From Planctomycetota bacterium (GTDB lineage Bacteria; Planctomycetota; Planctomycetia; Planctomycetales; Planctomycetaceae): a stretch of DNA of 60,722 nucleotides. Shown in pieces: positions 12,801 through 36,339 of the stretch (position 1 is its first letter; every line of letters begins with the position of its first letter). The position numbers and the translations under genes were made by a program. Below the pieces are notes generated by a model, which worked only from the letters and a program-made list of their open reading frames with translations, was not told the origin of the DNA and searched no databases. The stretch is from contig VGZH01000030.1 of NCBI GenBank assembly GCA_016872645.1, positions 1 through 60,722 on the forward strand, written 5' to 3'.

Positions 12801-15800
12801 ATTTGCAACGCATCGCCTTCCGAATCAATTCGGATTGCATCACTCGCCACCCCTGTCGCGACCAGGTTCGATCCAAGAATCGCGATGTCTTGATCGACGA
12901 GAAGTTGAGCATCCGACGCCAGCGGCTCTTCGTTGAGCCAGAAGCCACCACTCCCATCGAAATCGGAATCTGCGGTGACTTTCAGGTCGCTCGTCGCGCC
13001 GCTGACGGTGATTGTCGAGGTGACGATGACATCTTGAATCGCGGACAAATCAACCGAAGCATTCGCGGAAATGTCCGCTGAAATGAGCAGATCCTCGCCC
13101 GCCCCGTTGATCGAAATGTTCCCCTCGCCGACACGGATCGCTCGCAGAATGGTGGCCCCGCTGATCGACAACGATCCGCCAGACCCTGCTTCAGAACTGA
13201 GAGCTTGCGCGGCGGCCGCGATCGTCAATTCACTGGCACTGGTCAACGTGATGCTTCCGCCAGAGACTGGACTGGCCGCCGTAAGATCACCGCTTGTAAT
13301 CGGGCCTTCGAACGTCACTGCGCCGCCGCCCAATTGCGAGAATTCCAGGTTTCCTCCAACCGTTGTCAGCGAAGTGACGCTGGTCTGCGAGGCATTCTCG
13401 TTAGCAATTTTCACATCGAACGCACCGGTGACGGCAGCAGAAATGGTCGTTGCGGAGACTGAAAAATAGTCATCGGATGTCGCTCCAAAAATGCCCGTAG
13501 CCGAAATCAGGTCCACCGTTGATGCCGTCAAAATCCCGATTCCGGAAATGGACTCACTTGCCGCCGTCATGGTCGCCGAGCCAGCCATGATCAGCCCGTC
13601 GAGAATGATCGAGTCGCTCGCGGTGACGGTGAACACCCCGACGATGTTTGAGTCGGTCAACGTCACTGAGTTAATGTCGTGCAGAGTGCTCGCGTCACCG
13701 CTGTTGACCGTGACCAGTCCTCGAAAGTCATTCCCGTTGTCGAGGATCACACTCCCAGAAATTCCGACAAGAGTTGTGAGTTCAGCGACGACAACAGTAC
13801 CGCTCGCCCCATCATCGATCGAACTGCCGTTCGTGAGAATGAGGTTCAAAGCGGTGCTGTCACCGCTCAATTCGGTGGAATCCGCCTCCGAGATATCGAC
13901 ATCACCGGCGGAATTGAATGTGAGCGTGCCAAACTGATAGACGTCATCCAGCGTGATGCTTGTTCCGCTGAAGCGCGCGTTGCTTTCAACTACGACATTC
14001 GCCGTTCCATCGTTCGTGATCGCATCGGTGCTGCGGAGATCCAAACTTTCAGCAGTGCCGGTGCCACTCAGAACGATGTCCGAATCCTCAGCGATGCTGA
14101 CCTCTCCGATGGAGTCGAACGTTAAAGTCCCAAAGTTCAAAAGGTCTCCGGCCTCCTGCCCCAGCGTGATGCTCGTGCCGTGGAAAGATGCGTTGTTGTC
14201 GATGGAAACAACCGCCGATGAATCGTTGGCGATTGCGTCGCTGCTGCGAAGATCCAGGTCCGAGGCCGTACTGCTGCCCTGGAGAACCGTGGCATCCGCT
14301 TCGGTGATCTGAACCACTCCGGATGATGTGAACGTGAGTGAGCCGAACTGGTAAACGTCATCCAGCGTGATACTCGCACCGCTGAATTTGGCGTTGTTCT
14401 CGACAAGAACGTTGGCTGTGCCGTCATTGCCGATCGTGTCGTTGCTGCGAAGGTTCAAGGCTGACGCTGCTCCTGTTCCGCTGAGAACAGTGGCCGAATC
14501 TTCGTCGATCGCGACTTCTCCAGCCGAATGAAAGGTTAGCGTGCCGAAGTTCAGGAGATCGCCAGCTTGATCACCGAGCAAGATGCTCGCGCCAGTGAAC
14601 GAGGCGTTGTCGTCAATCGCGATATTTGCCGTACCGTCAGTCGCGATGGCGTCGGCACTCGTCAGGTTCAGGTTGATCGCCGCACTGTTTCCGCTCAGGA
14701 CAGTCGCTGAATCTTCGGCGATGCTGACATCCCCGGTGGACACAAACGTGAGCGAGCCGAAGTTGATGGACCCGGCCGCCGCAATGCTGATGCCTCCGTT
14801 GCTGGCCACGAAGCGAGCATTCTCACCGACGGACAGTGTTGCACCGCCCGTGATATCGCCGTTGACGGCAGTTGCGTTGAGGCGGCCACCCACCTCAGTG
14901 GCTGCGAATTCGAGGCCAGCGGCATTGACGACCGACGCGTTTCCGAGCGATCCAAACGTGCTCAGAGACACGGTACCGCTGAGTTGCAACAGATTGAGAT
15001 CAATGTCGTCATCGATCTGACTGGCGGTGAAACTCGCATTGCCACCAACGATCACGGCAGCGCTATCTGTGATGTTGCCGGTGGTCGCCACTGCCGTCAG
15101 GTTACCACCCACGTTGGTGCTGGAGAAATCGATCGCCGTCACGTTCATCACCGACGCGTCGCCGTTCGATCCGCTGGTGTTCAAGGAGAGTGTGCCAGCA
15201 ATTTGCAACCGATTGAGATCAATACCGTTGTTGATTTGATTGGTGGTGAACTGTGCGTCGTGACCAACCAGCACGACTCCGCTATCGGTGATATCGCCCG
15301 AGAGCGCAGTGGCCGTGAGGTTGCCCGCCACACTAGCCGAGGCGAAGTCGATGCTCGTCGCGTTCACGACCGTCGCATGACCGTTCGGGCCGATAGTGTT
15401 CAAGGCAAGTGTCCCGCTGAGTTGCAGCAGGTCGAGCGTGATGTCGTTGTTGGCCTGTGTGGTGGTGAAGCTTGCGCTGCCTGCAACACTCACGGCGCCA
15501 CTGTCAGTGATGTTTCCTCCAGCCATCACGGTGATGAATCCGTCACCGGTGTCGATCGCTCCCAAAATGACCGTCCCGGTCTGCTCGATCGTAACTCCGC
15601 CGGTGGCTGTGATCGCCCCGCCGATGTTGTCGAAATCGATTCCCGAACTGGCAAACGTGCCGCCGTTGGTGTTGATCGAGGCGCTGATGCTCACGTTACC
15701 ATTACCAAGATCGGGATCGTCTGGCACCGCATTGGCATTCAAGACGACATCCAGCGTGCCGTTCGCGACGGTAATTCCGCCGTCGAGAAAAATGTGATTG

Positions 15801-17512
15801 GCGGCATTGATTGTGAACGTCGCGGTGTTGCCTGAGTCTGTGAAGACGACGTCGATCGAGGCGTCGGCCGCCTGCGTGACGTTGCCGGCCTCGCCGCCGG
15901 ACGGGTTCGCCGTCGAGATCACGACGTTTGTACCGGCATTAAGTTGATTTTCGATGGCCGTATCGGTCACTTCCGAGCCACTGGCTGTGGGGGTGAAGTT
16001 TGGAAGCTGCCCGGTGTCATCCACGCCGAAACCGCTGAGCGTGTGTCGGATCGCGACGTTGTACGGGTCGAGCAACCATGTTCCCGCGCGGCCATTTGTG
16101 GCGCTGGCATCACCGCTGCCGGAGAGAATCAATTGCGAGAGGCTCGACGTCTCGATCAGGCCACCGTCCCCCGATTCCCTGCCGCCTCTCGCCGCCAGTG
16201 AACCGTAAACTTGGGTCGCATTGTCCGACCAGACCACGATCTTGCCGCCGTTGCCGTGGTGAATCGCATCCGCATGCACTTCGACATCCGAACCAATCCA
16301 GACCTGCGACGCATTGTGGATCGCGGCATTGACCCCGTAATTATCGCCGCCGATCAACACCGCGCCGCCACCTAAGGCACCCGACGCATCGACTCGGGCA
16401 TCACCGAACAGCCCAACTCGCTCGCCGAGCAGATGCACCGTGCCGCCGATATCTCCAGCGTCGGAATCTGAAACATCCACCTCGCCAGAGACGAGCAATG
16501 TCCCGTGCTCGCCGGCATCCAGCGACACATGGCCGCCGTGACTGATCACCTTCCCGGCGTGCGAAACCGTGATGTCGTCCCTGGCGTCAATCTCGATCAC
16601 TCCGCCGTTGCTCGTGAGGTCGCCATGAATCTGCACCGTCGTCGCTTCCAAGTTCAGGCTGCCGGGATGGCCGTCCGAAGTCAGCATGTGCGGAGACAAC
16701 GCAGCGCTGAAGTCCGCTCCCGACTCGTCCACGGTCACCGTCGACGAGTCACCAAACGACAACGCGCTGAAATGAATCGCCGTGAACCCGGCATCGAGTG
16801 CGGCAATGTCGCTGTCGGTGAAGTTGAGTTCGGCACCGTCGTTGTTCAAGCCGCCCAGTTCGATTGCGGGTGTCGTGGCTGACAGGATCGACAACGTCAT
16901 TCCGGAAAACGATCCGTCACCCCCGGTGAAGTCGATCTCGTTGGCGTTCAATGTGATGTCGTCGCCGTGAAAGCTCGACAAGCGGATGTGGCTGGCGGAC
17001 AGCGACACGTCGGCGACCTTCACGTCGTAATCGTTCGACGTTGTTTGGCTGATGGTTCCGAAACCTGCAGCGATCAAGGCGCCTTGCATGTGGCTGAGAT
17101 CGAGCGATGACGACTGCACATCGAAATGCAAATCAAAAGTCGAAGCGGCGGCACTCAGCGAGGCTCCTCCGGCCAAGCTGTCGAAGTCGCTTTTTTCAAT
17201 GGACAGAATCGAATGCCCCGGCGTGCTGTTGTCGATCGCAAAGGATCCGGTCGAACCGTCGTCGTGCCAAACACTCCCAGACAGGTCAAATTCAATGTGA
17301 CTCGTCAGTCCGCTCGACACTTCGCGAATGGTTAAATCTCCATCGACCCGGTTGAGAGTCAGTGTTTGAGGCGTGAAGGTGAAGTCGGCGTTCAAAACAC
17401 GACGCCGTTCCAATCGCATTAAATTCAAACGCCGTTCCTTGGCTCGCTCGCGTCGCAGAGACTGGCTGCGGCGAGGGGACAATAATCGGCTCAACCAACT
17501 GAGAGACAACAT
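3848..17512 (-). CDS. Giant 4554-residue haemagglutinin-like repeat protein
   Basis: This single uninterrupted frame makes a probable surface protein. The first 45 residues are basic and contain LERRRVLNADF, the planctomycete LEPR-type motif. Residues about 290-490 resemble the filamentous-haemagglutinin passenger core (GGTVHLLGERVGLFG, GGGAVLIGG, GGKIVVWSD, GTWLLDPYNV). Next come beta-helix units with ITDSG, a block of units with NFGTLTF, and then eleven copies of a unit of about 137 residues (IDIGVG, GGIVLNAG, VRFNGPVTL, GGTVTFTS, QQVLFNN, LGALTITQADGGV). Two Ig-like inserts (PTVTLTAP to LRARVSDLAGNE) interrupt that array. The C-terminus has a hydrophobic segment (AYASSLVAGALILLG) followed by a basic tail, suggesting membrane or sorting-type anchoring. 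The ATG at 17512 has an AAGGGA site upstream. No enzyme domain is visible, and adhesion is an inference from family resemblance. Confidence 0.9.
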   Translation of the reverse strand: MLSLSWLSRLLSPRRSQSLRRERAKERRLNLMRLERRRVLNADFTFTPQTLTLNRVDGDLTIREVSSGLTSHIEFDLSGSVWHDDGSTGSFAIDNSTPGHSILSIEKSDFDSLAGGASLSAAASTFDLHFDVQSSSLDLSHMQGALIAAGFGTISQTTSNDYDVKVADVSLSASHIRLSSFHGDDITLNANEIDFTGGDGSFSGMTLSILSATTPAIELGGLNNDGAELNFTDSDIAALDAGFTAIHFSALSFGDSSTVTVDESGADFSAALSPHMLTSDGHPGSLNLEATTVQIHGDLTSNGGVIEIDARDDITVSHAGKVISHGGHVSLDAGEHGTLLVSGEVDVSDSDAGDIGGTVHLLGERVGLFGDARVDASGALGGGAVLIGGDNYGVNAAIHNASQVWIGSDVEVHADAIHHGNGGKIVVWSDNATQVYGSLAARGGRESGDGGLIETSSLSQLILSGSGDASATNGRAGTWLLDPYNVAIRHTLSGFGVDDTGQLPNFTPTASGSEVTDTAIENQLNAGTNVVISTANPSGGEAGNVTQAADASIDVVFTDSGNTATFTINAANHIFLDGGITVANGTLDVVLNANAVPDDPDLGNGNVSISASINTNGGTFASSGIDFDNIGGAITATGGVTIEQTGTVILGAIDTGDGFITVMAGGNITDSGAVSVAGSASFTTTQANNDITLDLLQLSGTLALNTIGPNGHATVVNATSIDFASASVAGNLTATALSGDITDSGVVLVGHDAQFTTNQINNGIDLNRLQIAGTLSLNTSGSNGDASVMNVTAIDFSSTNVGGNLTAVATTGNITDSAAVIVGGNASFTASQIDDDIDLNLLQLSGTVSLSTFGSLGNASVVNAAGLEFAATEVGGRLNATAVNGDITGGATLSVGENARFVASNGGISIAAAGSINFGSLTFVSTGDVSIAEDSATVLSGNSAAINLNLTSADAIATDGTANIAIDDNASFTGASILLGDQAGDLLNFGTLTFHSAGEVAIDEDSATVLSGTGAASALNLRSNDTIGNDGTANVLVENNAKFSGASITLDDVYQFGSLTFTSSGVVQITEADATVLQGSSTASDLDLRSSDAIANDSSAVVSIDNNASFHGTSITLGQEAGDLLNFGTLTFDSIGEVSIAEDSDIVLSGTGTAESLDLRSTDAITNDGTANVVVESNARFSGTSITLDDVYQFGTLTFNSAGDVDISEADSTELSGDSTALNLILTNGSSIDDGASGTVVVAELTTLVGISGSVILDNGNDFRGLVTVNSGDASTLHDINSVTLTDSNIVGVFTVTASDSIILDGLIMAGSATMTAASESISGIGILTASTVDLISATGIFGATSDDYFSVSATTISAAVTGAFDVKIANENASQTSVTSLTTVGGNLEFSQLGGGAVTFEGPITSGDLTAASPVSGGSITLTSASELTIAAAAQALSSEAGSGGSLSISGATILRAIRVGEGNISINGAGEDLLISADISANASVDLSAIQDVIVTSTITVSGATSDLKVTADSDFDGSGGFWLNEEPLASDAQLLVDQDIAILGSNLVATGVASDAIRIDSEGDALQITGGRDLTLSTTLSVGLSAGDIIIEGRQFAGGSITVSSNDVTFVGADQQAGIDLLFQSAVRLTDDVALAAGGDLSFESTLDDDGSNTTGSALTLIAGGASRFAGAVGAIAGDRLDTLTIEDAESVHFEGTVMIDGDIDVTTTGLTSTAVGTVTFDDAVTTTAGLASGSVEITNFGRLIISPGADLLLAGAFTQNGTESIELGGNITTSNGGVSFDRAILLTESVTIDSSNQSGDLVFSDLIDSEDASGVAEHNSLTLTSGAGLISFNGDIGTGSQGNQTLGDFTIVTAGAVRFGGNDASDPSGSGTTGPMNAIATNGVMDIGVGGNVVAGGIVFTAESGLFVVTTTNDTVRFNGPVTLASDLDINTNATGTGGTVTFTADSPIDSNTGGSFALTIDAGTQQVLFNNDLGQSRALRALTITQADGGVSFGQADTNQGPGSIGPVMTVAIDGPIDIGVDNRVILGGIELNAGSGSLLMTTANDTVRFNGAVTLDSAVELKTNSAGGGGTVTFTSSTTIDSQTGEHNDLTIDAGTQQVLFNNNLGQFNALGKLTVTQADGGVIFGQVDTNQGSGTIGPVELIAADDTIDIGVGENIILGGIVLNAGNGTLHLTTTDDSVRFNGAVTLAAHVDINTNSSANGTSSLASGGTVTFTSSATIDSQVGEHNDLTIDAGTEQVQFSNNLGGTQSLGALTIIQADGGVSFGQPTAFGQGDEDLSPGGAGPVTKIVTDGTIDIGVGSNVVTGGIVLDGGLDSLLIRTTDDTIRFNGPVTLGSDVDIDTNATGQGGTVTFTSATTIDSQPDEHNDLKINVGTAQVLFNNDLGASQSLGALTITQANAGVIFGENDADQGSGMTGPVSVIATDEPIDIGVGDNIVAGGIVLNAGSGTLQIETTDDSIRFNGPVTLSSNVEINTNLDETPLVGGGTVTFTSASPIDSQAGETNDLTIDVGVQQVLFNNDLGASQQLGALTITQADGGVTFGQSDSDDGLGTGPVTTIATDGAIDIGVDFKAIIRAGVVPSTGITFNAGGGTLQITTTDDAVRLNGPVTLQSSVDINTNTAATGIGGTVTFTSDATIDGEFGEFNDLTIDAGTRLVLFNNDLGQTHPIGALTITQSDGGVIFGESDDFEPGGHGTTGPVSTVSTNGAIDIGVGSNVITGGILLNGGDSGLLQITVSDEPVRFNGAVTLATDVDINTNATPDSGGGTMTFTSAATIDSQSGEHNDLTIDAGTQQVLFNNNLGQTDSLGALTVTQADGGVIFGESDTFEPDGPGTTGPVAIISADEAIDIGAVEHIIAGGIVLNAGNVDRTSPTVTLTAPHSTNDTTPSVTVTASDPDLGGTGSGVPDGTVVSLDVDLDNSGDFDGPGERNYASSTLTGGTTTFELSPALTDLKTYQLRARVSDLAGNEATTPALPMIVDTTLAVETPQAPATDLSSVVSRTLQITTTDDTVRFNGPVSLLTNVDINTNPSGAIDGGGTTTFTSASTIDGQSDESNHLTIDVGAQRVLFNNDIGQVNPIGALTITRADAGVVFGESDLDQGPGLTGPVSGIMTNGLIDIGVGVNVIRSDEDNVGIIFNAGAATLILTTTDDTVRINGAVTLASGLDINTNPAGLGATVTFTSSATIDSESGEHNDLTIDVGTFQVLFNNDLGRTDPLGALIITQADGGVTFGESDNLSNNDGTTGLVSVIATDGAIDIGVLGNIINGGILFNGGPNPLLLTTTDDPVRYNGQITLGSDLSIDTNDSGFGGTVTFTSSAIIDSQSNEQNELMIDAGAQQVLFNNNIGETVPLGALTIVQADAGMTFGESVVDLGPGTTGPVSIVTTVRSIDLGQDGNVVFGGIVLNAGIVDERKPTVTLTAPSQTDDITPSVTVTASDPGEGSTGTGIPNGTNVSLDVDLTGDNDFDDAGELNYATSTLTGGTSTFDLPALMDLRTYQLRARVSDPAGNEGMTTPLLSMDVNTGLPSGPTQTSLAVIDATPIVERLVEITSLEDRIRINGPVTSLSDTILRAAEGITLTDFADITTTNHNLEMFGDTNQTFVDDSVTDAIAMGRDTFIDAGSGYIHMNAASILLGHLTTTNAGTTTDPHPAVHITATTGAIRDSNSDIGTDSDFVNITANALPTVGELDVSLTDSETMFVVSNINVGLDTPFTIQVEQEQMLVTAIAGDTLTVTRGANGTSAVMHAGSVATPITVFAVTPGAGVVLEAVTGIGSGDAIETEVDTLQARNMDALDAGGGVRVAAQGNIQIVEVPSGGNLNLINVRNQANAQVDGDELNGVIDVTIIRDPQLGLPGLGAIDGSLTVLDDDLGGFDATGLPYGLLAELKGDPALLVIPGDQMGVQSENTIRLTAFNITINDDILAVTDVDAGTTYETIELHARGDFVLAANRVITTDENFAGKSGVVGSLFQGDPSKAEVGGDVATVTFPTKPRVTDDRIRIVADVDFADHVDAGNVFLGRSSTISTDAGIEQLISRRPAPNESGTAFFDSTSVVTSDLNANGLDSGGSKYLGFLTITIGKPGEKNLILDVDWGDTPRSQDLLDKVPSGLRSGIDDFNTVRASKISDQVADSANVLSDSNINPPTLQGTNYVFDAVVDKHKTRFFIPEGGLTYIIPHEYSSFALNRPNDLHLPGRFAPSDPFQVRFSVSTHPSINIQGRSISEHTIGPADAAPLAVVPASSPIAPLALLSSTDILEDNAVDDHGPSYTTDVIDGTPDFYQDEAIFRLNSGAAEFSIPTSAAVFFIKPDVVIPPPELPKPSIPLPVFVTAPQLTTESLRGATASSSVTTDEFFELHLVNEDGTIVSERLRDGEALLDRDAFEKFVRDRGDGEYEIWFITRENGTGARIERPVVQFRLEGGRLTPPANDSQELSKPFRLVPVPVPAPKPMPAEDAADEMSDDNDSAKANEALPSPGFESSSIAEPQWGPDLLDSTTEIPHESSNNSAFAYASSLVAGALILLGKRGRRSRFMQQGASRFSRSARLIRKRSNLADDV
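6938..7280 (-). repeat. Ig-like insert, copy 2 (C-terminal)
   Basis: This segment encodes a domain of about 110 residues from KPTVTLTAPSQTDD through TYQLRARVSDPAGNEG. It is a bacterial Ig-like fold of the kind that ends in R-x-R-V-x-D-x-A-G-N. It closely matches the copy at 8556-8905 and, like it, directly follows a GGIVLNAG half-unit of the 137-residue repeat. Confidence 0.7.
7270..12010 (-). repeat. Eleven tandem coding repeats of about 411 bases (137 residues)
   Basis: Within the giant gene the QQVLFNN-type segment recurs on the plus-strand scale near 7474, 7871, 8291, 9101, 9512, 9935, 10348, 10762, 11184, 11585 and 11993. Spacing is 397-423 bases, except one gap of about 810 bases that holds an Ig-like insert. 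The copies are diverged but clearly homologous at DNA level (for example the gttgttgaacagaac core). This points to amplification by unequal recombination followed by drift. Confidence 0.85.
8556..8905 (-). repeat. Ig-like insert, copy 1
   Basis: This segment encodes the first Ig-like domain (SPTVTLTAPHSTND through TYQLRARVSDLAGNEA). It sits inside the 137-residue repeat array and accounts for the one double-length spacing in that array. A Ca-binding-like acidic stretch (VDLDNSGDFDGPGE) is present, as in the second copy. Confidence 0.7.
13850..15560 (-). repeat. Two families of shorter beta-helix repeats in the giant protein
   Basis: About 13850-14830 encodes units of about 78 residues around NFGTLTF, EDSATVLSG, LRSNDTI and NDGTANV. 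About 14830-15560 encodes units of about 85 residues around GNITDSA, VGGNASFT, IDLNLLQLSGT and NVTAIDFSS. The second family shares the ITDSG motif with the neighbouring giant gene at 1-3233, so the two proteins are related in part. Confidence 0.7.
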
Positions 17513-28131: not shown

Positions 28132-28572
28132 ATGGCCACGGTCAGCGACCTACTTCGCGCGAAAGCGCCGCGTCCGGTCCTCACGGTCGACTTGGGAACG
28201 ACCGTTCTAGTAGCCACTCAACGAATGGATCAGCATGCAGTCGGTGCGTTGCTGGTCACCGATGGCGGCAGGCTTTGTGGCATCTTTACCGAGCGTGACG
28301 TCCTGCGACGAGTCGTCGCAGCCGAACGGAATCCCGCCGCGACTTACGTTCGCGATGTCATGACCACCAACATGGCGTGTGCTGCGCCGAACACATCCGT
28401 GGACGATGCCCGCTCGATTTTTAAGGCGCATCGCATCCGGCATCTGCCCATCGTCGGAGCCGATGGCGAGTTGATAGGAGTGATTTCCATCGGCGATCTG
28501 AACGCTCATCTTGCCAACGACCGAGAAGTAACGCTGCACTTTCTTAACGAGTACCTGCACGGCCGAACGTAG
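28132..28572 (+). CDS. CBS-domain pair protein
   Basis: This 146-residue cytoplasmic protein is made almost entirely of two CBS motifs (a Bateman module), which commonly bind adenosine nucleotides and act as energy sensors. The first CBS runs from about residue 17 (VLTVDLGTTVLVATQRM to GIFTERDVLRRV). The second follows VRDVMTTNM and ends in VISIGDLNAHL. AAGGAG lies about 7 bases before the ATG. There is no attached effector domain. It converges with the minus-strand peptide cluster, with a 44-base gap between stop codons, so any functional link to that cluster is only positional. Confidence 0.93.
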   Translation: MATVSDLLRAKAPRPVLTVDLGTTVLVATQRMDQHAVGALLVTDGGRLCGIFTERDVLRRVVAAERNPAATYVRDVMTTNMACAAPNTSVDDARSIFKAHRIRHLPIVGADGELIGVISIGDLNAHLANDREVTLHFLNEYLHGRT

Positions 28573-28616
28573 CCGAAGCACTTCGTGACTCAAACTTTGG
28601 TCATGGAACGACCGAC

Positions 28617-29540
28617 CTACGCTCGTTGAATCCGCTGCGTCAAATCCCGCAGACGGCTGAATTGTTGGACGAGCTTTGGGACTCCATCAATCCCCATCAG
28701 CAGCATCAGGATGTAACGGAATACGGCGAAAATGTCCCCCGGAGTTGCGGTCATCGACGAGCAAGTCCGCAGCATGGCCAGTACCATCACGCCCAGCACA
28801 AACACCTCCATCGTGCCAAAGTTCAAAGCCTCACAGTCCGAGAGTTTCACTCGCCACGACGCCACGGCGTCGTAGTGGCGACGGACGGCCGGTCCTTGGC
28901 AGTGGTCGATCACATCAACTTCGTGCTCAAGTTGGTCGTGCAATTGGCGGTTCAACTCGAATGTCCGCCGCGAATAAAGCCGGTTCAACACGACTACCGG
29001 CAACAGCAATCCCAGGCAGATCGGAACGAGCACGCGATCGTAGAACGCCAACACCACCAGCGCTCCGACAACGGAATACACCGACTTAATGAGCAGCGGC
29101 ATATGGTTCTCGAAGAACTCGATAAATTCGTGCGACAGCGAACTGCGAGCCGCGACGCGAGAAAGACCCACTTCGCGACCGCGCTGGTCGACGACCAGAT
29201 TTGTCGCGAGATCCGCGTAGATGCCGGAGTAAACTCGCGTGTCGTACATCTGCCGCAGCGAGCAGATCAGCAAGTGCGTCAGATGCTGACCAACAAACAA
29301 CAACAGGCCATTTGATGATTCGTGGAGCAGGTCGTTGATAGCCAGTCCCAGCACAAACGGCTGCGACAGTCGCAACAAGTTTTCGAGGTTGAACAGAAAA
29401 TAAGTCAGCAGAAGCTTGGCTCGATTTTGGAAAAAGATCGTGCGAAGTGGACTGGCTCTGCCCTGCGGCACTGTAACTTGGCGTCGTTTCGGCAACGGCG
29501 TCGGTTGAATCGGAATCGAATGAACGGGAACTGAGAGCAT
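28617..29540 (-). CDS. ABC-exporter-type transmembrane protein without ATPase domain (ABC_membrane_3-like)
   Basis: The protein has 307 residues. The start at 29540 follows GGGAGG 5 bases upstream. A longer frame to 29753 would overlap the upstream gene by 91 bases and has no better site. Hydrophobic segments occur near LLLTYFLFNLENLLRL, GLLLFVGQHLTHLLI, SVVGALVVLAFYDRV, LVPICLGLLLPVVVL and EVFVLGVMVLAML, with a cytoplasmic-loop-like EFIEFFENHMPLLIKSVYS stretch. This is the layout of the six-helix domain of ABC exporters, as in the Pfam family ABC_membrane_3. No Walker A, signature or Walker B sequence is present. It is last in the MNIO cluster, so a role in peptide export or membrane recruitment is inferred. 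A partner ATPase would have to be encoded elsewhere. Confidence 0.75.
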   Translation of the reverse strand: MLSVPVHSIPIQPTPLPKRRQVTVPQGRASPLRTIFFQNRAKLLLTYFLFNLENLLRLSQPFVLGLAINDLLHESSNGLLLFVGQHLTHLLICSLRQMYDTRVYSGIYADLATNLVVDQRGREVGLSRVAARSSLSHEFIEFFENHMPLLIKSVYSVVGALVVLAFYDRVLVPICLGLLLPVVVLNRLYSRRTFELNRQLHDQLEHEVDVIDHCQGPAVRRHYDAVASWRVKLSDCEALNFGTMEVFVLGVMVLAMLRTCSSMTATPGDIFAVFRYILMLLMGIDGVPKLVQQFSRLRDLTQRIQRA

Positions 29541-29662
29541 GATGGCCTCCCACGGTGCTTTCGGTGGAATCGTTTCGTTTGGAGACTGCCGGACGAAAGA
29601 GGGCAACAATCGTTCGGCGATCCCGGCCGTGAGCGGGTTCAGTGTGTTGGTTGATTGCTCGG

Positions 29663-30421
29663 TCAGCCAAACGCCACAAGACCCATCTCGGCAGCGTCGA
29701 GGCAGAACTCGATAAGGTCGCTCCGTGAGGTGGACCGATCGAGACGCTTCCAATCCGTCAGCGTGAATGGACCGTGGGAGGCCAAGGTCTCAACGAACTC
29801 TTTGCCGGCATCCTCGAACGCCGACGTGCGAATCTGGTGACCATTCGCGAAGAACAGCACGTCGGTCGGTGTCGTGGTTTCCGCATCGAGCAGCACGTTG
29901 GTTTGAAACGTCGCCCAAATTCGAATTGGATTCAAGTGGATGCGTAATCTCGAATTCGTCTGCCATTCAGCCGTCAGCCGATCCGCCAGACTGTGGAGTT
30001 CTTGAAAGCGGACGTGCCCTAATCGATTCATGCGGGCAGAGTTTTCGACTTCGTGGCGGGCGAGTTGGCAAGCGATGTGGTCGTGCTGCTCCAGTGACGT
30101 GACGTGAGTCAGCTTGAGCCAGCGCAGAAATCGATCACTGTCTGAACAGCCTGTGTCGTATGCGGCCAGCGGAACTTGGTGGATATACTCGGACACGAGT
30201 TCGTTCAAGTTGTCGAATGCGGCATTGAGCAGCTCAACTTGATCGAGCACCTTTGCCATCCGCTTGTCGAGGTTACCGTCCGTGAACAGCTTCACATGTC
30301 CGACCGTCATGCCGTCGGCCAGGAATGGTCGAACGTCTTCGACGCATCCCAAGGCCATCGATTGGACGCACCGCTGAATTTGGTCGCGGTAGTCGATCTT
30401 GTTCGAGGCGAGCGGGGTCAT
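29663..30421 (-). CDS. Probable MNIO partner protein (function analogous to MbnC/BufC), unassigned family
   Basis: The protein has 252 residues and starts at ATG 30421, with AGAGGGA about 11 bases upstream. A GTG at 30562, only 28 bases after the MNIO stop, is an alternative that adds 47 residues of unlikely composition. The N-terminal two thirds are helical (DYRDQIQRCVQSMAL, VLDQVELLNAAFDNLNELVSEYI). The C-terminal third looks like a small alpha/beta plus winged-helix-like end (LRIHLNPIRIWATFQTNVLL, GPFTLTDWKRLDRST). MNIO enzymes usually need a separate partner protein that binds the leader peptide and is encoded directly downstream. Position and size fit that role. I did not recognise a specific Pfam family, so the role is an inference from context. 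Confidence 0.55.
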   Translation of the reverse strand: MTPLASNKIDYRDQIQRCVQSMALGCVEDVRPFLADGMTVGHVKLFTDGNLDKRMAKVLDQVELLNAAFDNLNELVSEYIHQVPLAAYDTGCSDSDRFLRWLKLTHVTSLEQHDHIACQLARHEVENSARMNRLGHVRFQELHSLADRLTAEWQTNSRLRIHLNPIRIWATFQTNVLLDAETTTPTDVLFFANGHQIRTSAFEDAGKEFVETLASHGPFTLTDWKRLDRSTSRSDLIEFCLDAAEMGLVAFG

Positions 30422-30590
30422 GACAGTCTCGTTCCCTCTTCCTGATGCTCCAGGGAGAAGTGTGGTCGTCCGTTTGCGCAGGACACAGTCACCGGCCTTC
30501 CCAACAATCGATGACAATATCCAACAAACTTCCACACTCCGCCCCGGAGAACCAGGAAGCACAAGTCACCACTCAAATCTCAAATTCGTA

Positions 30591-31475
30591 CTAGCGCGAG
30601 CAATAGATCTCTTCGGCGATGGCTCGCGTTTGACGAATCTCCCGTCGCCAACTCCGTTCGTCTGGGTAGTTTTGATCGCGTTCCAGAAACACGGCGTCGA
30701 TTTTTCGGCGCCCTTGTTCGAGAGCGTGGCGGTACAGACTCCACACCGGTTCCGGGATCGATTCTGAGTGACTGTCGATGTACAGGCCCGCCTGTTCGTC
30801 AAAGACACCGCCCGCCAAATGCAGTTGGACACGATCGGCAGCCGGCATCACTTCGGTGATGAAGTCATCTGCGTCGAAGCCGAAGTTGACCGCGTTGGCA
30901 TAGACGTTGGTCACATCGAGCAGCCATCCGCAGCGAGTGTTCTTCAACACGCGATAAAAAAACTCCGCCTCGGTCATCGTCCCTTCGAACTGAAACAGGT
31001 AGGCGATATTTTCAATGTAGAATCGCCGGTCGCGACGGGCAAAAAACGTCTGTACGAAGTCAATGTTTCGGCAAGTCGCGTCGAGCGCGGCCGGTGTGAA
31101 TGGAGGTGGAGCGAAGTGCCCCATCTCAGCACCATGCTGAGCATCGCGAGTGAAGCCCAGGTGATCGCTGATCGATTCGGCATCGTTCTCTTCGGCGATC
31201 GCCAGCAGCGCGTCGAGATAATCGCGACCGGGAGCGTCCGGACTGGCGACCGACAGTTTCAACGCGTGAATCCCGACGTGCTCGAATTCCTGTTCGCCGA
31301 GGTAGCGGTCGATACGAAGCGGGTCATCGGCTCGTTCAAACGTGATCTCGACCGCGTTGATGGCTGGGTCGTTCAGGATGTCGCGATTCTGTTCGCGGAG
31401 GGCATAACCGATTCCTGGCACGGTGAATCGTTCCGATGTGGCAATGCGAGCAGTGTCGACCATGCTGAGAGACAT
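30591..31475 (-). CDS. DUF692 / MNIO multinuclear non-haem iron oxidative enzyme
   Basis: This 294-residue protein belongs to the family that includes MbnB, TglH, ChrH and the bufferin synthases, which oxidatively modify cysteines and some other residues in precursor peptides using a di- or tri-iron site on a TIM barrel. Family motifs are in order: GIGYALRE at the start, GIHALKLS (His70), SDHLGF (His105), YIEN (Glu155, Asn156), LLDVTNVYANA (Asp187, Asn190), LHLAGG (His219), DSH (Asp234, His236) and FLERD (Glu265). All the expected ligand positions are filled, so it should be active. GGAAGGA lies 8 bases before the ATG. It follows the 43-residue Cys-rich peptide gene and precedes the partner gene on the same strand. 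Confidence 0.92.
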   Translation of the reverse strand: MSLSMVDTARIATSERFTVPGIGYALREQNRDILNDPAINAVEITFERADDPLRIDRYLGEQEFEHVGIHALKLSVASPDAPGRDYLDALLAIAEENDAESISDHLGFTRDAQHGAEMGHFAPPPFTPAALDATCRNIDFVQTFFARRDRRFYIENIAYLFQFEGTMTEAEFFYRVLKNTRCGWLLDVTNVYANAVNFGFDADDFITEVMPAADRVQLHLAGGVFDEQAGLYIDSHSESIPEPVWSLYRHALEQGRRKIDAVFLERDQNYPDERSWRREIRQTRAIAEEIYCSR

Positions 31476-31511
31476 GGCGGATTCCTTCCAATTTCTGTAT
31501 CCAAAATCAAA

Positions 31512-31606
31512 CGGCGAGTGGCCAGTAGAACAGGCGGATGCGGCGATAGGATTGAGTGCGATTGAGAACGCTCACACAATCGGGGCTGGACGGCCTCCAC
31601 TCGCCG
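31512..31606 (-). promoter_or_regulatory. Inverted repeat between precursor and MNIO genes
   Basis: On the minus strand CGGCGAGTGG (31597-31606) is followed 75 bases later by CCACTCGCCG (31512-31521), a perfect 10-bp inverted repeat in the 144-base spacer after the peptide stop codon. In RNA it would close a large stem-loop just downstream of the precursor frame. In many RiPP operons a hairpin at this place protects the precursor transcript or limits read-through, so that more precursor than enzyme is made. That role is inferred here. Confidence 0.45.
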
Positions 31607-31619
31607 CATGGTTCAGGAG

Positions 31620-31751
31620 CTACCGGCCACCGCGACAACATCGGCAGCAACGGCAACAGCGATGGCGTTCGGCAGATTTCTTGAGGGAGTCGTCTGTTCG
31701 CAACTCAGTCAGTTCGCGAATCGCTTTCTTGGTCTTTGACAGAGTGGTCAT
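31620..31751 (-). CDS. Putative RiPP precursor peptide with CCRCCRCC core
   Basis: An ATG at 31751, preceded by AAGGAA 7-8 bases upstream, opens a 43-codon frame ending in TAG at 31620-31622. Residues 1-28 form a charged leader that is free of Cys and likely helical (SKTKKAIRELTELRTDDSLK). Residues 29-43 read RHRCCRCCRCCRGGR: three Cys pairs separated by single Arg, with a Gly-Gly-Arg tail. There is no export signal. The MNIO gene lies 144 bases downstream on the same strand. MNIOs act on Cys in such short precursors, so this is the obvious substrate. The regular CC-R spacing makes chance coding unlikely, and the frame is too short for ordinary gene callers. The opposite-strand frame across it (31423-31758) is a shadow. 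Confidence 0.85.
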   Translation of the reverse strand: MTTLSKTKKAIRELTELRTDDSLKKSAERHRCCRCCRCCRGGR

Positions 31752-32222
31752 GGCTTAATTCCTTCTGAGCCCCAGAGTGCCCGAAACGAGTCGAATCCCG
31801 CATTCGCTTCAGCGAGACCATCCCATCTGAATCGTTGACTTCGATTCGGTTGGCATCATTCATTTGCAGTCGGGGTGCCAATCCCGCGGAATCTGGTTGT
31901 GGTGACAGCAGGCATCGGTTTTTCCGCAAATCGCCGAGTTTCTGGCCAAATAGTCGCGGAGAGCCAGGCGACTCTCGATTTGATGGGCCGTCGTCAGGAT
32001 GGCAACAACCGTGATCGGGCGGATGGCGGAGTTGAATGCCGCAGACAATCCGGCGTAGTGCTGATTGCAGTCGACGATGCGGTGTTGCAATCGACTTCGA
32101 GGGGCGCGGGCGAGAGGGAACTCAGGAGTCGCTGCGGTCGAAATTCTGGAAAAGCGATACGCCTCGGCGAAGGTTGTCCGATATATTGTCGCGACTTTCT
32201 TCTTCCCACCTCGCAGCCCACC
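31752..32222. other. Divergent intergenic region with a possible Cys/His-rich minus-strand frame
   Basis: These 471 bases separate the peptide cluster (minus) from the DUF1549 gene (plus) and must hold both promoters. I see no clear -10/-35 pairs. On the minus strand a frame ending at 31860 encodes a protein-like stretch, ITVVAILTTAHQIESRLAL, then SAICGKTDACC and HHNQIPRDWHPDCK. It has no ATG of its own near a ribosome binding site (the nearest usable codon is TTG at 32047), and the plus strand is also open. It could be a decayed gene or a small protein linked to the cluster. I do not call it as a gene. Confidence 0.35.
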
Positions 32223-34895
32223 ATGCTTCGAACTTGCCTGCTTTTGCTGTGTTTGATCGCGCCTGTCGCAGCGACGCTCGCGGAAGAGCGTCCGTCGGTC
32301 CCCCGCGCGAGCCGCTCGCCGCTGTTTGAATCGCAAGTGCGGCCGATTCTCAAGTCGCACTGTTTTCAGTGTCACGGCGAAGAAGCGAAGCAGGAAGCGA
32401 AACTCGACTTGCGACTGGCTCGGTTGATCGCCAAGGGGGGCGAGTCTGGCCCAGCGGTCGTCGCCGGCAATCATGCCGACAGTTTGCTCTGGAAGCGAAT
32501 TACGGCTGGTGAGATGCCGCCCGGCGAGAAGAAGCTGAGCGAAAAGGAACGGCAAATCATCGCGGCGTGGATTGATGCCGGAACGAAGACGCTTCGGCCA
32601 GAGCCGGAAGCGATTTCGGACGATGATGTGACCGAAGAAGAGCGATCATTCTGGTCGTTCCAGCCGATTCGACGACCGAGCATCCCGCGAGTGAAACGGG
32701 CCGACGTGCTACGCACTCCCATCGATGCGTTTTTACTGGCTCGTCTCGAAGAGGACAAACTTTTGTTCTCCGAGGATGCCGATGCGGCGACGCTGGTACG
32801 GCGTGCGTCGTTCGATTTGCTCGGATTGCCGCCGTCTCCGGCAGAGGTCGATGACTTTTTGGAGGATCGCGAACCAGGTGCCTACGAGCGGCTGATCGAT
32901 CGATTGCTGGAGTCGCCGCACTACGGAGAACGGTGGGCACGGCACTGGCTCGACATCGCCGGATATGCCGACAGTGATGGCTTCGGCGAGAAAGACCTCG
33001 AACGCAAGTGGGCCTTCAAGTACCGAGACTGGTTGATCCGGGCGATCAACTCCGACCGTCCGTGGGATGAACTGATTCGCGAGCAACTCGCGGGCGACGA
33101 ACTGCTCCTCTCGGTCACATTGGGAGATCGTGCGCCGGTGAAGGGGAAGGCTCCAATTCAGTATCGCGACCTCACGGCGCAACAAGCGGACATGCTCATC
33201 GCGACGGGATTCCTTCGCATGGGGCCGGATGGAACGGGTGATGCCGCGGTCAATCAAGACATCGCCCGCAACGATTGCATGGCCGAGACGATCAAGATTG
33301 TCAGCTCATCACTGTTAGGTTTGACGGTGGGGTGTGCTCAGTGTCATCTGCACCGCTACGACCCAATTTCGCAAGTCGATTACTACCGGATGCGAGCGAT
33401 CTTTGAGCCGGCTCTCGATTGGAAGGACTGGCGGAATCCGAACGCTCGGCTCATCTCGCTATGGACGGTCCAGCAGATCGAGCTCGCCGAGAAGTGCGAT
33501 GTCGAAATCAAGCGGCTCGAAAAGGAACGAGCCGACAAGATCGAGGAACTGGCTGCGTCCTTTCGCGAAAGGAACATGGAAGGACTCCCCGACGAGTTGA
33601 AGGAGAAGATTCGCGAGGCCTTCAAAACGCCGCTCGCTCAGCGAACTCAGGAGCAGAAGCAGTTGCTCGCGGATCATCCCAAGGCGGCTGTCGGCGTGAA
33701 TTTGATCGATCGTAATCTCAAGGACGAGCACAAAGCGATCATGGACGAATACAACAAGCTGATCGCCGCACAGCGAGCGATTCGACCGGAGGACGATTTC
33801 GCGCATTGCCTGACCGAAGTCCCCGGCAAGATCTCGCCGACGTTCCTGTTCTTTCGAGGCGAATTCGCTCAGCCCAAACAAGAAGTCGCACCGGGCGAAT
33901 TGAAGGTGCTGGCTACCGCTTCAAACATCACGATCCCTCGCGATGATGAGAATTTGCCGACCTCCGGCCGCCGCTTGGCGTACGCTCGGCTTTTGACGAG
34001 CGGCGAACATCCGCTCGTCGCACGCGTTTTCGTGAACCGCATCTGGATGCACCATTTCGGACGTGGCTTGGTCGCAACGCCCGGAGACTTCGGACGACTC
34101 GGCGAACAGCCATCGCACCCGGAGTTGCTCGATTGGCTCTCCGACGAATTCATGCGCAGCGGCTGGTCTCTCAAAAAGCTGCATCGCACCCTGATGATGT
34201 CGACGGCCTATCGGCAGTCGTCACGTCGGCGACCGGAGCTGGAACCTGTCGATCCCGACAATCGATTGCTCGGCCGCATGTCGATCCGCCGTCTGGAAGC
34301 CGAGACGGTGCGTGACGCGATGCTCGCGGTCGGCGATCAACTGACTGCAAAGCTGTTCGGAGCACCGATTCCCGTCACACCCGACGAGACGGGGCAAATC
34401 ATTGTCGGCGTCGACACGCGCGACACCGCCGGTCGCCCGACGGGCAAGATAGTGCCGCTCCACGGCGAGGAATACCGCCGTAGCCTGTACATCAGCGTTC
34501 GCCGCACGATGCCGTTGGCGATGCTCGAGACCTTTGATGCCGCGACGCTCAGCCCGAATTGTGCGGTCCGCACGCCGTCCACCGTCGCTCCGCAATCGTT
34601 GATGCTGATGAATAACGATTTTGCCGCGGATCAATCCACAGCATTGGCCGAACGAGTCGCTCGCGAAGCCGGCAGCGTCCCGGCCACTCAAGCTCGGCTC
34701 GCCTGGCGACTGACACTGGCACGTGACCCGACTGAGACACAAATTCAATCGGCCGTCGCGTTCCTCACTGAACATGCCGAACAATTCGCCGCACAGCCGT
34801 CCGACAAGAAGAATCTTGTGCCTCCGTCTCAACGGGCCTTGACCAGTTTCTGCCAAGCCTTGCTGATTTCGAACGGCTTCTTGTACGTCGATTGA
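32223..34895 (+). CDS. Planctomycete cytochrome-type DUF1549/DUF1553 protein
   Basis: This 890-residue exported protein starts at 32223. The frame runs open further upstream, but the signal peptide (LRTCLLLLCLIAPVAATLA) begins here. Order of domains: PSCyt1 haem-binding-like motif CFQCH (Cys47, Cys50, His51), then DUF1549 (IDAFLLARLEEDKL, ASFDLLGLPPSPAEVDDFL, HYGERWARHWLDIAGYADSDG), a second CxxCH (Cys371 to His375, CAQCHLHRYDPISQVDYY), a charged coiled-coil-like segment, and DUF1553 ([39 protein letters not shown]). The biochemical role of this large planctomycete family is not established. c-type haem attachment is suggested by the CxxCH motifs. It is followed after 19 bases by a DUF1501 gene, the usual partner order. 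Confidence 0.93.
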   Translation: MLRTCLLLLCLIAPVAATLAEERPSVPRASRSPLFESQVRPILKSHCFQCHGEEAKQEAKLDLRLARLIAKGGESGPAVVAGNHADSLLWKRITAGEMPPGEKKLSEKERQIIAAWIDAGTKTLRPEPEAISDDDVTEEERSFWSFQPIRRPSIPRVKRADVLRTPIDAFLLARLEEDKLLFSEDADAATLVRRASFDLLGLPPSPAEVDDFLEDREPGAYERLIDRLLESPHYGERWARHWLDIAGYADSDGFGEKDLERKWAFKYRDWLIRAINSDRPWDELIREQLAGDELLLSVTLGDRAPVKGKAPIQYRDLTAQQADMLIATGFLRMGPDGTGDAAVNQDIARNDCMAETIKIVSSSLLGLTVGCAQCHLHRYDPISQVDYYRMRAIFEPALDWKDWRNPNARLISLWTVQQIELAEKCDVEIKRLEKERADKIEELAASFRERNMEGLPDELKEKIREAFKTPLAQRTQEQKQLLADHPKAAVGVNLIDRNLKDEHKAIMDEYNKLIAAQRAIRPEDDFAHCLTEVPGKISPTFLFFRGEFAQPKQEVAPGELKVLATASNITIPRDDENLPTSGRRLAYARLLTSGEHPLVARVFVNRIWMHHFGRGLVATPGDFGRLGEQPSHPELLDWLSDEFMRSGWSLKKLHRTLMMSTAYRQSSRRRPELEPVDPDNRLLGRMSIRRLEAETVRDAMLAVGDQLTAKLFGAPIPVTPDETGQIIVGVDTRDTAGRPTGKIVPLHGEEYRRSLYISVRRTMPLAMLETFDAATLSPNCAVRTPSTVAPQSLMLMNNDFAADQSTALAERVAREAGSVPATQARLAWRLTLARDPTETQIQSAVAFLTEHAEQFAAQPSDKKNLVPPSQRALTSFCQALLISNGFLYVD

Positions 34896-34914
34896 ACGAT
34901 TGGGAAAAAGAACC

Positions 34915-36339
34915 ATGCTCAACCGCCGCCATTTTCTCGCCACTCAGGGTTTTTCGCTTGGCTCACTGGCGCTGACTTGGCTGATGGAACGTGACGGAAT
35001 TGCCGCCGCTCCGGCGAAGCCGACTCTCGAACGGCCGACATTTGACTTGAAGCAGAAACAGCCACACAGCGAACCGCGTGCTCACGCAATGATCTCGATG
35101 TTCATGCAGGGTGGGCCAAGCCACGTTGATCTGCTCGATCCGAAACCGGAACTGTCCAAGCATCACATGCAGGATTACTCCGGCGGCGACTTCAAATTCG
35201 ACAGCACCGATCAAGCCAGCCGCAAGCTGTTTGCCGGTCCGTGGAAGTTTCGCCCGCACGGCGACTGCGGCACGGAACTCAGCGAACTGCTGCCACATTT
35301 GGGCGACGTCGCCGATGACATCTGCGTGATTCGCTCGATGCGGACCGGCGTGAACAATCACGGCCAGTCAATCCTGGCGTTGCAATCGGGAGTCGTCGTC
35401 CCCGGACGTCCGTCGCTCGGTTCTTGGATGACGTACGCTCTAGGCAGCGAGAACGATGATCTGCCCGCGTTCCTCGTGTTGCGAGATCCAGCCTCGTTGC
35501 CGGTTGAGGGTGTCTACAACTGGTCGAACGGTTTCCTGCCGTCGCTGTTTCAGGGGACGGTCGCGCGACCGACCGAGCCGCGGATCGCGAACCTCGATCC
35601 ACCGCCACACATGCAAGGCAAACCGCAGGAGCGATTCCTCGAGTACCTCAATCAAATCAACCGCGAGCATCTTGCCGAGAGACCTGGCGAAAATGATCTC
35701 GCCGCGCGCATCGCCAGCTACGAACTTGCGGCAAAGATGCAGTCGGCTGCGAAAGAGGCGTTCGACATCTCCGGCGAAACGAAGGCCACGCAGTCGATGT
35801 ACGGACTCGACCGCAAGGAATCGCGTGAGTTCGGCACTCGTTGCCTGATCGCCCGCCGGCTTGTCGAGCGTGGCGTGCGATTCGTGCAGCTTTTCACGGC
35901 CAACCAAGAGTGGGACCATCACGGCGGAATCATCACCAGCCTGCCGAAAGTTTGTCTCAAGATCGACCAACCCGCCGCCGCGCTGGTGCGAGACCTCAAA
36001 GAACGTGGCCTGCTCGACACAACGCTGGTCCACTGGGGCGGCGAAATGGGACGACTGCCGGTCATTCAAAACGAAAAGAACATCGGCCGCGACCACAACA
36101 CCTACGGCTTCAGCCAATGGATCGCGGGCGGCGGTGTGAAGGGCGGTCTGACCTACGGAGCCACCGACGAGATCGGCCACAAGGCTGTTGAAAACGTCGT
36201 CATGCACCACGACTACCACGCAACTCTGTTCCATCTGTTCGGTCTCGACCCGCACCGAGTTGCTTTCCCGCGAGCGACCGGTACCAGCCAACTCATCGAG
36301 ACACAGCAAGCTCGTGTCGTTCGTGACATCTTGATCTGA
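34915..36339 (+). CDS. DUF1501 protein, Tat-exported
   Basis: The protein has 474 residues. The start at ATG 34915 gives a Tat signal with NRRHFL at residues 3-8 and a hydrophobic stretch (GFSLGSLALTWLM). An in-frame TTG at 34900 is less likely. DUF1501 proteins belong to the alkaline-phosphatase/sulfatase-like superfamily. Typical segments are FMQGGPSHVDLLDPKPE, IRSMRTGVNNHGQS, EWDHHGG, HWGGEMGRLP and DYHATLFHLFGLDP. The substrate is unknown. It is probably co-transcribed with the DUF1549/DUF1553 gene 19 bases upstream. These two families co-occur in planctomycetes, suggesting an extracytoplasmic function together. Confidence 0.93.
   Translation: MLNRRHFLATQGFSLGSLALTWLMERDGIAAAPAKPTLERPTFDLKQKQPHSEPRAHAMISMFMQGGPSHVDLLDPKPELSKHHMQDYSGGDFKFDSTDQASRKLFAGPWKFRPHGDCGTELSELLPHLGDVADDICVIRSMRTGVNNHGQSILALQSGVVVPGRPSLGSWMTYALGSENDDLPAFLVLRDPASLPVEGVYNWSNGFLPSLFQGTVARPTEPRIANLDPPPHMQGKPQERFLEYLNQINREHLAERPGENDLAARIASYELAAKMQSAAKEAFDISGETKATQSMYGLDRKESREFGTRCLIARRLVERGVRFVQLFTANQEWDHHGGIITSLPKVCLKIDQPAAALVRDLKERGLLDTTLVHWGGEMGRLPVIQNEKNIGRDHNTYGFSQWIAGGGVKGGLTYGATDEIGHKAVENVVMHHDYHATLFHLFGLDPHRVAFPRATGTSQLIETQQARVVRDILI

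Follow-up and report, generated by a model that had tools for sequence, protein, structure and literature searches.

Here we describe a four-gene cluster on the minus strand of contig VGZH01000030.1 (assembly GCA_016872645.1), contig 30 of the 5.76-Mb genome of a Planctomycetota bacterium of the family Planctomycetaceae; the whole 60,722-nucleotide stretch is referred to below as the window. The genes encode a small cysteine-rich peptide, a multinuclear nonheme iron-dependent oxidative enzyme (MNIO), a partner protein and a membrane protein, in this order, with spacers of 144, 169 and 122 nt. Very probably the cluster makes a ribosomally synthesized and post-translationally modified peptide (RiPP) by means of an MNIO and a RiPP recognition element (RRE), with the cysteines of the core peptide as modification sites. 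RiPP status is strongly supported by sequence comparison, since a genetically linked precursor combines a constant leader with a variable core, whereas chemistry and function are what we infer from it. Among the MNIO-dependent RiPPs, a known kind, it represents a precursor family and an enzyme clade that are both new. An earlier note on this DNA had described four genes in close order on the minus strand, and the corresponding open reading frames (ORFs) were all recovered.

The conserved association of the precursor with the MNIO is part of the evidence for this conclusion. A contig scan with short MNIO patterns yielded 18 loci: 13 (L002-L014) had MNIOs 64-87% identical to that of the window, all under Planctomycetota titles, and the other five, at 35-38% identity, were titled as cyanobacterial or melainabacterial in three cases, as Plesiocystis in one and as uncultured in one. 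With the window peptide alone as query, BLAST matched 12 of the 18 loci and none of the five with distant MNIOs; at the single close-MNIO locus that it missed, L014, a leader-sharing ORF was found by reading. Within the family of the window, an MNIO was matched at E <= 1e-40 in 34 of 170 genomes and 19 of 58 genera. For gene order, 36 loci with MNIOs of at least 59% identity were compared by uniform profile searches on six-frame ORFs, counting loci present in two collections once (L008 and L009 are near-copies) and leaving out L068-L070 (40-51%). The partner gene directly follows the MNIO gene on the same strand in all 36, and the precursor was matched upstream of the MNIO in 30; this precursor-MNIO-partner order is often kept among other neighbours. 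All 30 adjacent peptides are rows of the profile or, in L009, a copy of one, and had first been found by BLAST with the window peptide, by the leader pattern or by reading. As to the remaining loci, L116 has only 138 bp of upstream DNA and hence no precursor match, L118 (genome G451) has a leader-like peptide with the core FCRGCRRCRSCRRCRRCRC recognised by eye, and in G266, G257, G428 and G429 the peptide lies elsewhere in the genome (E 1.7e-16 to 3.1e-18, two copies in G266); these unlinked peptides were absent from the training alignment. The earlier note had made its proposal depend on a homologous peptide next to MNIO relatives and had suggested a neighbourhood search with alignment of precursors. 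Such peptides were indeed found, upstream in 30 of the 36 loci by profile and in one more by eye, the gene order is kept in relatives, and 31 peptides were aligned.

At L095, L096 and L097 (G257, G428 and G429) the precursor is separated from the MNIO gene; by reading, it adjoins a fructose-1,6-bisphosphatase-like gene at L095 and L097, and the MNIO and partner genes stand elsewhere behind a PilT-like gene.

The precursor co-occurs with the MNIO even where the two are unlinked. Of 392 genomes drawn evenly from the phylum, 78 have some MNIO match (E <= 1e-20) and only five have the present clade (E <= 1e-100 with identities of 61% or more, the next best being 40%), and the peptide profile (E <= 0.001) matched exactly the same five genomes, including G257 and G266 with unlinked genes. 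Absences of the peptide are softer than presences in this comparison, because scoring of the peptide was limited to 18 candidate places in each genome. On present matches, the peptide family appears to be confined to Planctomycetota.

Codon comparison indicates that the peptide gene is real and under purifying selection. Among six same-length orthologues of the genus (L003, L005 and L006 were dropped for length and L009 as a duplicate of L008), the pooled ratio of nonsynonymous to synonymous substitution rates (dN/dS) was 0.068, and 4, 3 and 24 of the 43 columns varied at codon positions 1, 2 and 3, respectively. Core and leader codons are equally constrained, with proportions of nonsynonymous differences of 0.030 and 0.033 and of synonymous differences of 0.461 and 0.312. 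The precursor has its own ribosome binding site, as the earlier note had it, with AAGGA 8 nt ahead of the ATG; an AAGGA-type site precedes the precursor in nine same-genus loci, and a looser Shine-Dalgarno pattern precedes one start in each of 30 other family peptides (in L011, the upstream one of two possible starts). The peptide has a predicted isoelectric point of 9.8, a calculated monoisotopic mass of 4998.50 Da and six cysteines within its last 12 residues. No signal-peptide-like N-terminus was seen by reading (no predictor was used), no Pfam or NCBIfam family matched up to E 1, and no convincing second copy was found in the same genome, where the next profile match has E 1.63.

Across the alignment of 31 peptides, the motif [VI]RE[LI]..LR[TS] of the leader is nearly constant, with R12 invariant and E13, L17 and R18 each kept in at least 90%. 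The commonest cores consist of two or three CCR units (two units in L005) with the tails GGR, CW, CRR or FFN. The CC-R-CC-R-CC core on which the earlier note had centred its proposal is therefore of the commonest type, but it is one of several, and the constant part is the leader. The core of L013 is CCRYCRSCRSCYSC(RSC)4GCH, and L067 shares the xCR-type core FCRGCRRCRSCRRCRRCRC with L118. L012 and L014 have FCHGCH; here an intervening ORF separates the MNIO gene from the precursor, which lies some 1.1-1.4 kb upstream. In G437 three precursors stand in tandem, and G436 has (LERCGR)n with one unit changed from Cys to Ala. Most cores are repeats of x-Cys-Arg or x-Cys-His, LERCGR (Cys-Gly) being an outlier. 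Core types follow the MNIO tree of 43 rows, with eight label changes against a shuffled mean of 13.7. With a midpoint root, LERCGR branches first, then L013, and the (CCR)n rows lie inside, the branches being moderately supported (92/79, 92/89 and 90/88). The deepest branch of the clade, LERCGR (support 92/79), is thus built on a six-residue repeat, and the G436 core resembles the FonA-type EGKCG repeat of thiooxazole metallophores. FonBC was reported to form 5-thiooxazole from EGKCG repeats with loss of four hydrogens per repeat, giving seven 5-thiooxazoles and copper binding, and an absorbance at ~302 nm was reported for FonA (PMC12668002; here and below, statements on published systems refer to excerpts of the cited texts).

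The MNIO of the window, the only one matched in its genome, scores 184.4 bits against PF05114 (MbnB_TglH_ChrH; gathering score 25). The iron ligands of VcMbnB, H55, H91, E135, D165, N168, H194, D209 and E238 (PMC8888699), correspond to H70, H105, E155, D187, N190, H219, D234 and E265, and the catalytic aspartate D240 to D267; positions E155-E265 were assigned by manual counting in the alignment with PDB chain 7dz9_B, and the two N-terminal histidines come from the alignment to 3bww. All eight ligands and D267 are invariant across 16 aligned MNIOs, and the earlier statement that all expected ligand motifs are present is borne out by the complete VcMbnB set. Against the NCBIfam models the enzyme scores 145.7 bits for BufB (cut-off 310), 137.1 for HvfB (360), 62.2 for ApyH (400), 43.1 for ChrH (600) and 34.1 for MbnB (325), and so falls below the cut-off of all five matched models, BufB scoring best. 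In the distant loci L015, L016, L017 and L019 (cyanobacterial, melainabacterial or uncultured), the MNIO follows a secreted-looking peptide; those of L015-L017 have many SCKGKE-type repeats and are apparently bufferin- or oxazolin-like.

The partner protein matched no Pfam or NCBIfam family up to E 1. When 13 partner sequences were compared with the families at E <= 1, weak and scattered matches to 13 families were obtained, none named DUF2063, with NGO1945_C matched by one of the 13 (E 0.12); a PDB sequence search with the partner profile gave no match up to E 10. The predicted structure (mean predicted local distance difference test score, pLDDT, 86.3) was aligned by VIA to NGO1945 (3dee) with Z 14.2 and a root-mean-square deviation (rmsd) of 3.4 over 184 residues, and to TglI (8hi7_A) with Z 13.0 and rmsd 5.2 over 221 residues. 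Lower rows include the ribosomal oxygenases NO66/MINA53 (Z 5.7-8.8) and the RREs of TbtB, TbiB1, TruD and McbB (Z 5-8); since Z below 8 may reflect a mere common arrangement, the weight is on NGO1945 and TglI. The best match of Foldseek alone was also TglI, at a nonsignificant E of 0.092, and the fold assignment therefore relies on the VIA re-alignment, as neither Foldseek nor the PDB sequence search gave anything significant. The model supports assignment of the partner to the known MNIO-partner architecture with an RRE, similar to PME-type 2. Partners of this type accompany precursors without a Sec signal (PMC12452194), and the signal-less precursor and PME-type 2-like partner described here fit this published correlation. 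In the 392 genomes, the partner profile matched the five genomes of the MNIO clade and, in addition, G291, G024 and G137, in which no MNIO was matched at E <= 1e-20. These partner relatives (L034, L035 and L036, respectively) are possibly relics or a reuse of the putative leader-binding protein; at L034, a diverged relative of the ABC membrane protein is encoded as well.

The fourth gene product scores 179.4 bits against PF13748 (ABC_membrane_3; cut-off 27), and no ABC ATPase family is among its three matches up to E 1. Its model (pLDDT 68) most closely resembles the transmembrane parts of BmrA, MsbA, TAP and PCAT1; Foldseek retrieved ABC exporters with E 1.2e-3 at best and TM-scores of 0.30-0.47. 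The ABC membrane gene is present in 23 of 31 testable loci, that is, those in which 1 kb or more of sequence follows the partner gene (five contigs or fetched stretches were too short). Of the four-gene make-up proposed in the earlier note, the precursor-MNIO-partner part is kept, and the membrane protein is optional.

Two genomes of the same genus point to loss of the cluster. In G482, DNA matching window positions 36330-36244 is followed by three bases and then by DNA matching 28994 onward. Compared with the window, this locus (L102, contig G482:C90) is without about 7.2 kb comprising the peptide, MNIO, partner and PSD1 genes and nearly all of a DUF1501-like gene; of the ABC protein, residues 1-177 are gone and a 129-residue stretch remains. 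Searches of the G482 draft genome gave no MNIO at E <= 1e-40, nor any peptide match below E 0.4. A second adjacent stretch is also missing or diverged, so that more than one step may be involved, and the gap itself may be a misassembly. In G475, a variant precursor with the core HRCDRCCRCSRCW (L100, 6817-7077) was matched at E 1.2e-10. The DNA just after it is 83% identical to window positions 30449-30548, part of the MNIO-partner spacer. Judging from these comparisons, the cluster seems dispensable, since G482 apparently lacks most of it and G475 keeps the peptide without an MNIO.

Under the proposed mechanism, the RRE of the partner would likely bind the leader through its [VI]RE[LI]..LR[TS] motif, and the partner would likely present the core to the MNIO. 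By analogy with FonBC, the MNIO might then oxidise one cysteine in each x-Cys-Arg unit, removing four hydrogens every time, to a thiooxazole or an oxazolone/thioamide-type heterocycle, a step to which we give a little less than an even chance; in (CCR)n cores, alternating heterocycles and free thiols would be left. A protease whose gene lies outside the cluster would cut off the leader, and the product may leave the cell, conceivably with the help of the ABC gene product, where present, and a separate ATPase. Binding of Cu(I) or another soft metal by the product, for protection or scavenging, is somewhat less probable again than the heterocycle. Both of these steps are put below even because of the substrate restriction of FonBC, the distance of the clade and the lack of a nearby metal gene. 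A bolder form of the proposal, a new RiPP class, which is rather doubtful, has the MNIO and its partner walk along the period-three (x-Cys-Arg)n array and turn every unit into a heterocycle, which would give a short, polycationic, modular strand binding soft metals. It includes the alternating free thiols of (CCR)n cores, changes in length and spacing through gain and loss of triplets, and an ancestor similar to the EGKCG repeat.

Several observations weigh against our interpretation. FonBC left cores with a charged residue after cysteine unprocessed (PMC12668002), so that a thiooxazole at x-Cys-Arg is not a given, and the scores far under the curated cut-offs suggest that the reaction of the MNIO may differ. 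The annotated neighbours include neither a metal-related gene nor a regulator. The membrane protein has no ATPase and is absent from 8 of the 31 testable loci, the G451 peptide was missed by the profile, and G475 has neither an MNIO at E <= 1e-40 nor a PF13748 match. Finally, the MNIO relatives of L068 (4038-4859), L069 (4348-5154) and L070 (4150-4953), at 51%, 46% and 40% identity, have lost several iron ligands, no precursor was found at these three loci and the partner was found in L069 alone; judging from their sequences, these enzymes are possibly decaying or repurposed.

The best surviving alternative, to which we assign clearly less than an even chance, is a RiPP whose cysteines undergo another reaction: formation of a ChrH-type macrocycle or hydantoin between paired cysteines, TglH-type carbon excision, or one not yet described. 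The position of the MNIO far below the matched NCBIfam equivalogs agrees with it, as does the PME-type 2-like partner, which is of the type that serves TglH, whereas thiooxazole makers use PME-type 1; moreover, the paired cysteines of the common core could cross-link. However, the MNIO clade can do without paired cysteines, since other branches of it use single-cysteine units (xCR, FCHGCH, LERCGR). Enzymes of the ChrH family have an extra C-terminal helical bundle (PMC12636315), whereas the 294-residue MNIO of the window is covered by PF05114 at residues 23-287. Planctomycetota are named among the small clusters of ChrH relatives in the same paper.

A role as a secreted antimicrobial or signal peptide instead of a metal binder, with the cationic core and the ABC-exporter-type protein serving export and target binding, is conceivable for the product but unlikely. 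The basic isoelectric point, the cysteine-rich end, the exporter-like protein in 23 of the 31 testable loci, the variable cores on a constant leader and the tandem precursors of G437 would all suit such a role. On the other hand, the ABC gene is missing in the other eight, most cores hold to one cysteine rule rather than diversifying freely, and no kept immunity or protease gene was noticed in the flanking ORFs that were read, which is not a systematic search.

Cysteine-rich arrays are generally able to bind Cu(I) or Zn(II) without being modified, and the peptide could accordingly be a metallothionein-like binder, the MNIO and partner acting on another substrate. The peptide genes standing apart from the MNIO in G257, G428, G429 and G266 and the variant peptide of G475 without an MNIO match would fit. 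This reading is nevertheless very improbable, given the co-occurrence in the 392 genomes even when unlinked, the adjacency in 30 of 36 loci by profile, and a leader that varies less than the core between genera, which is what recognition by an enzyme would predict. Stand-alone precursor genes are, moreover, found also among the bufferins, for which tandem precursors and precursors without an MNIO are reported too (PMC12452194). What is new is thus the leader, the cores and the MNIO clade, and not these habits of the precursor. Finally, that the peptide is a chance ORF or annotation artefact, as its mere 43 codons and the overlapping opposite-strand ORFs 31608-31739 and 31423-31758 might suggest, is next to impossible in the face of the low dN/dS, the variation concentrated at third positions, the conserved Shine-Dalgarno site and the orthologues across many genera.

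Among characterized systems, the captophorins, bufferins and oxazolins (FonABC, HvfABC, BufABC), copper peptides with 5-thiooxazoles made by an MNIO and a PME-type 1 partner, share with the RiPP cluster proposed here the precursor-MNIO-partner order and the repeated cysteine units, and the bufferins also the tandem and stand-alone precursor genes (PMC12452194). In contrast to them, the MNIO is below the BufB and HvfB cut-offs, the partner is without the DUF2063 signature of PME-type 1, the peptide is without a Sec-like start as far as reading can tell, cysteine is mostly followed by arginine instead of forming Lys-Cys or Cys-Lys, and no DoxX or DUF2282 match is found in the four window genes. 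The 3-thiaglutamate system TglHI has a similar partner fold (TglI) and a related MNIO (8hci_D, E 2.4e-15), and the leader of the pearlins, as that of the window peptide by reading, has no Sec signal (PMC12452194). In TglA, however, cysteine is added at the C-terminus from cysteinyl-tRNA (PMC9016710), whereas the window peptide has six encoded cysteines. The methanobactin system MbnABC has the MNIO superfamily and iron ligands in common with the cluster, and its modified units are x-Cys dipeptides (PMC8788703), as proposed for the x-Cys units here. Yet the window MNIO is far under the MbnB cut-off, and the fold of MbnC was recovered with just Z 5.0. The core of the window peptide is presumably not methanobactin-like.

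The adjamnio families (Antoine et al. 2025, PMC12452194) were defined in silico as MNIO-adjacent cysteine-containing precursors, the signal-less ones going with PME-type 2. According to the excerpts of the main text by which we set the families apart, adjamnio-7 has a CxxC motif and adjamnio-I comprises 122-293 residues, and none is described there as a short CCR or xCR peptide; an overlap with ungrouped small ORFs, unlabelled in that paper, is possible. The word start "planctomy" is absent from its main text. The earlier note knew of no described product with a CC-R-CC-R-CC core, and in agreement with this, no description of a CCRCCRCC or Cys-Arg array precursor of an MNIO in Planctomycetota was found among the matches listed for open-licence PubMed Central papers, supplements aside.

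MNIOs keep yielding unexpected cysteine chemistry, and to our knowledge the natural-product chemistry of Planctomycetota is little explored. The leader motif is searchable and defines the precursor family of a Planctomycetota MNIO clade, and the natural cores, with one to many units, single or paired cysteines, and Arg, His or Gly after cysteine, form a substrate series for studying the modification site and the tolerance of the enzyme. If the products bind copper, MNIO-dependent metal handling would extend to Planctomycetota.

Coordinates of the cluster and associated elements in the window are collected in Table 1.

Table 1. Features of the candidate RiPP cluster (window positions)
Feature	Coordinates	Strand	Basis
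RiPP precursor peptide	31620..31751	-	43-aa ORF; leader MTTLSKTKKAIRELTELRTDDSLKKSAERH, core RCCRCCRCCRGGR
Ribosome binding site AAGGA of the precursor	31760..31764	-	Read from sequence; 8 nt ahead of the peptide ATG
5' region of the precursor, putative transcript leader with GGGA/UCCC hairpin	31765..31860	-	Nine same-genus loci aligned
MNIO enzyme, 294 aa	30591..31475	-	PF05114, E 3.1e-54; MbnB iron ligands complete
MNIO partner, helical domain and RRE, PME-type 2-like, proposed leader binder	29663..30421	-	252 aa; predicted fold
ABC-exporter-type transmembrane protein without ATPase domain, proposed export component	28617..29540	-	307 aa; PF13748, E 9.9e-53

The 96-nt region ahead of the precursor ribosome binding site has a mean column identity of 81% and may be a regulatory transcript leader. 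Its predicted hairpin shows almost no covariation, with both sides changed in only one of 29 pairs and a covariation term of +1.24. An Rfam search of positions 28300-32300 at E <= 1 gave a sole match, to a microRNA family (E 0.8; 22.1 bits, the gathering score being 90), at 30448-30547. The intergenic region 30420-30590 was considered as a dispersed repeat and rejected, being single-copy in its own genome, with a similar stretch in G475. By reading, AAGGA also stands 7 nt ahead of the ATG of the MNIO gene. No promoter-like sites (1.7 expected) and one terminator-like site (3.6 expected) were found, counts that say little about transcription.

Upstream of the cluster lie a divergent PSD1/DUF1549 gene and a second divergent gene, which we take to be DUF1501-like; downstream is a convergent CBS-domain gene. 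The description of the cluster as self-contained between unrelated genes largely holds, and many relatives carry it among different neighbours. A functional link of the PSD1/DUF1501 pair (31875-36339) to the cluster was considered and found unsupported. A PSD1 relative is upstream in the window and in three of nine same-genus loci (L002, L005 and L006; for L004, L008 and L009 just ~0.5-2.2 kb of upstream DNA was available), and beyond the genus PSD1 or DUF1501 relatives were found at 3 of 26 MNIO loci. The genome of the window (G000, 5.76 Mb) has 101 PSD1 (DUF1553) match rows, some genes being split in two, and PSD1 genes are therefore expected as chance neighbours. At some distance from the cluster, positions 3848-17512 of the minus strand hold an open frame of 4554 residues, probably a giant surface or repeat protein; its Pfam matches to 4HBT and DUF5649 repeats exceed the cut-off, and those to Big_13 and GEVED are weaker.

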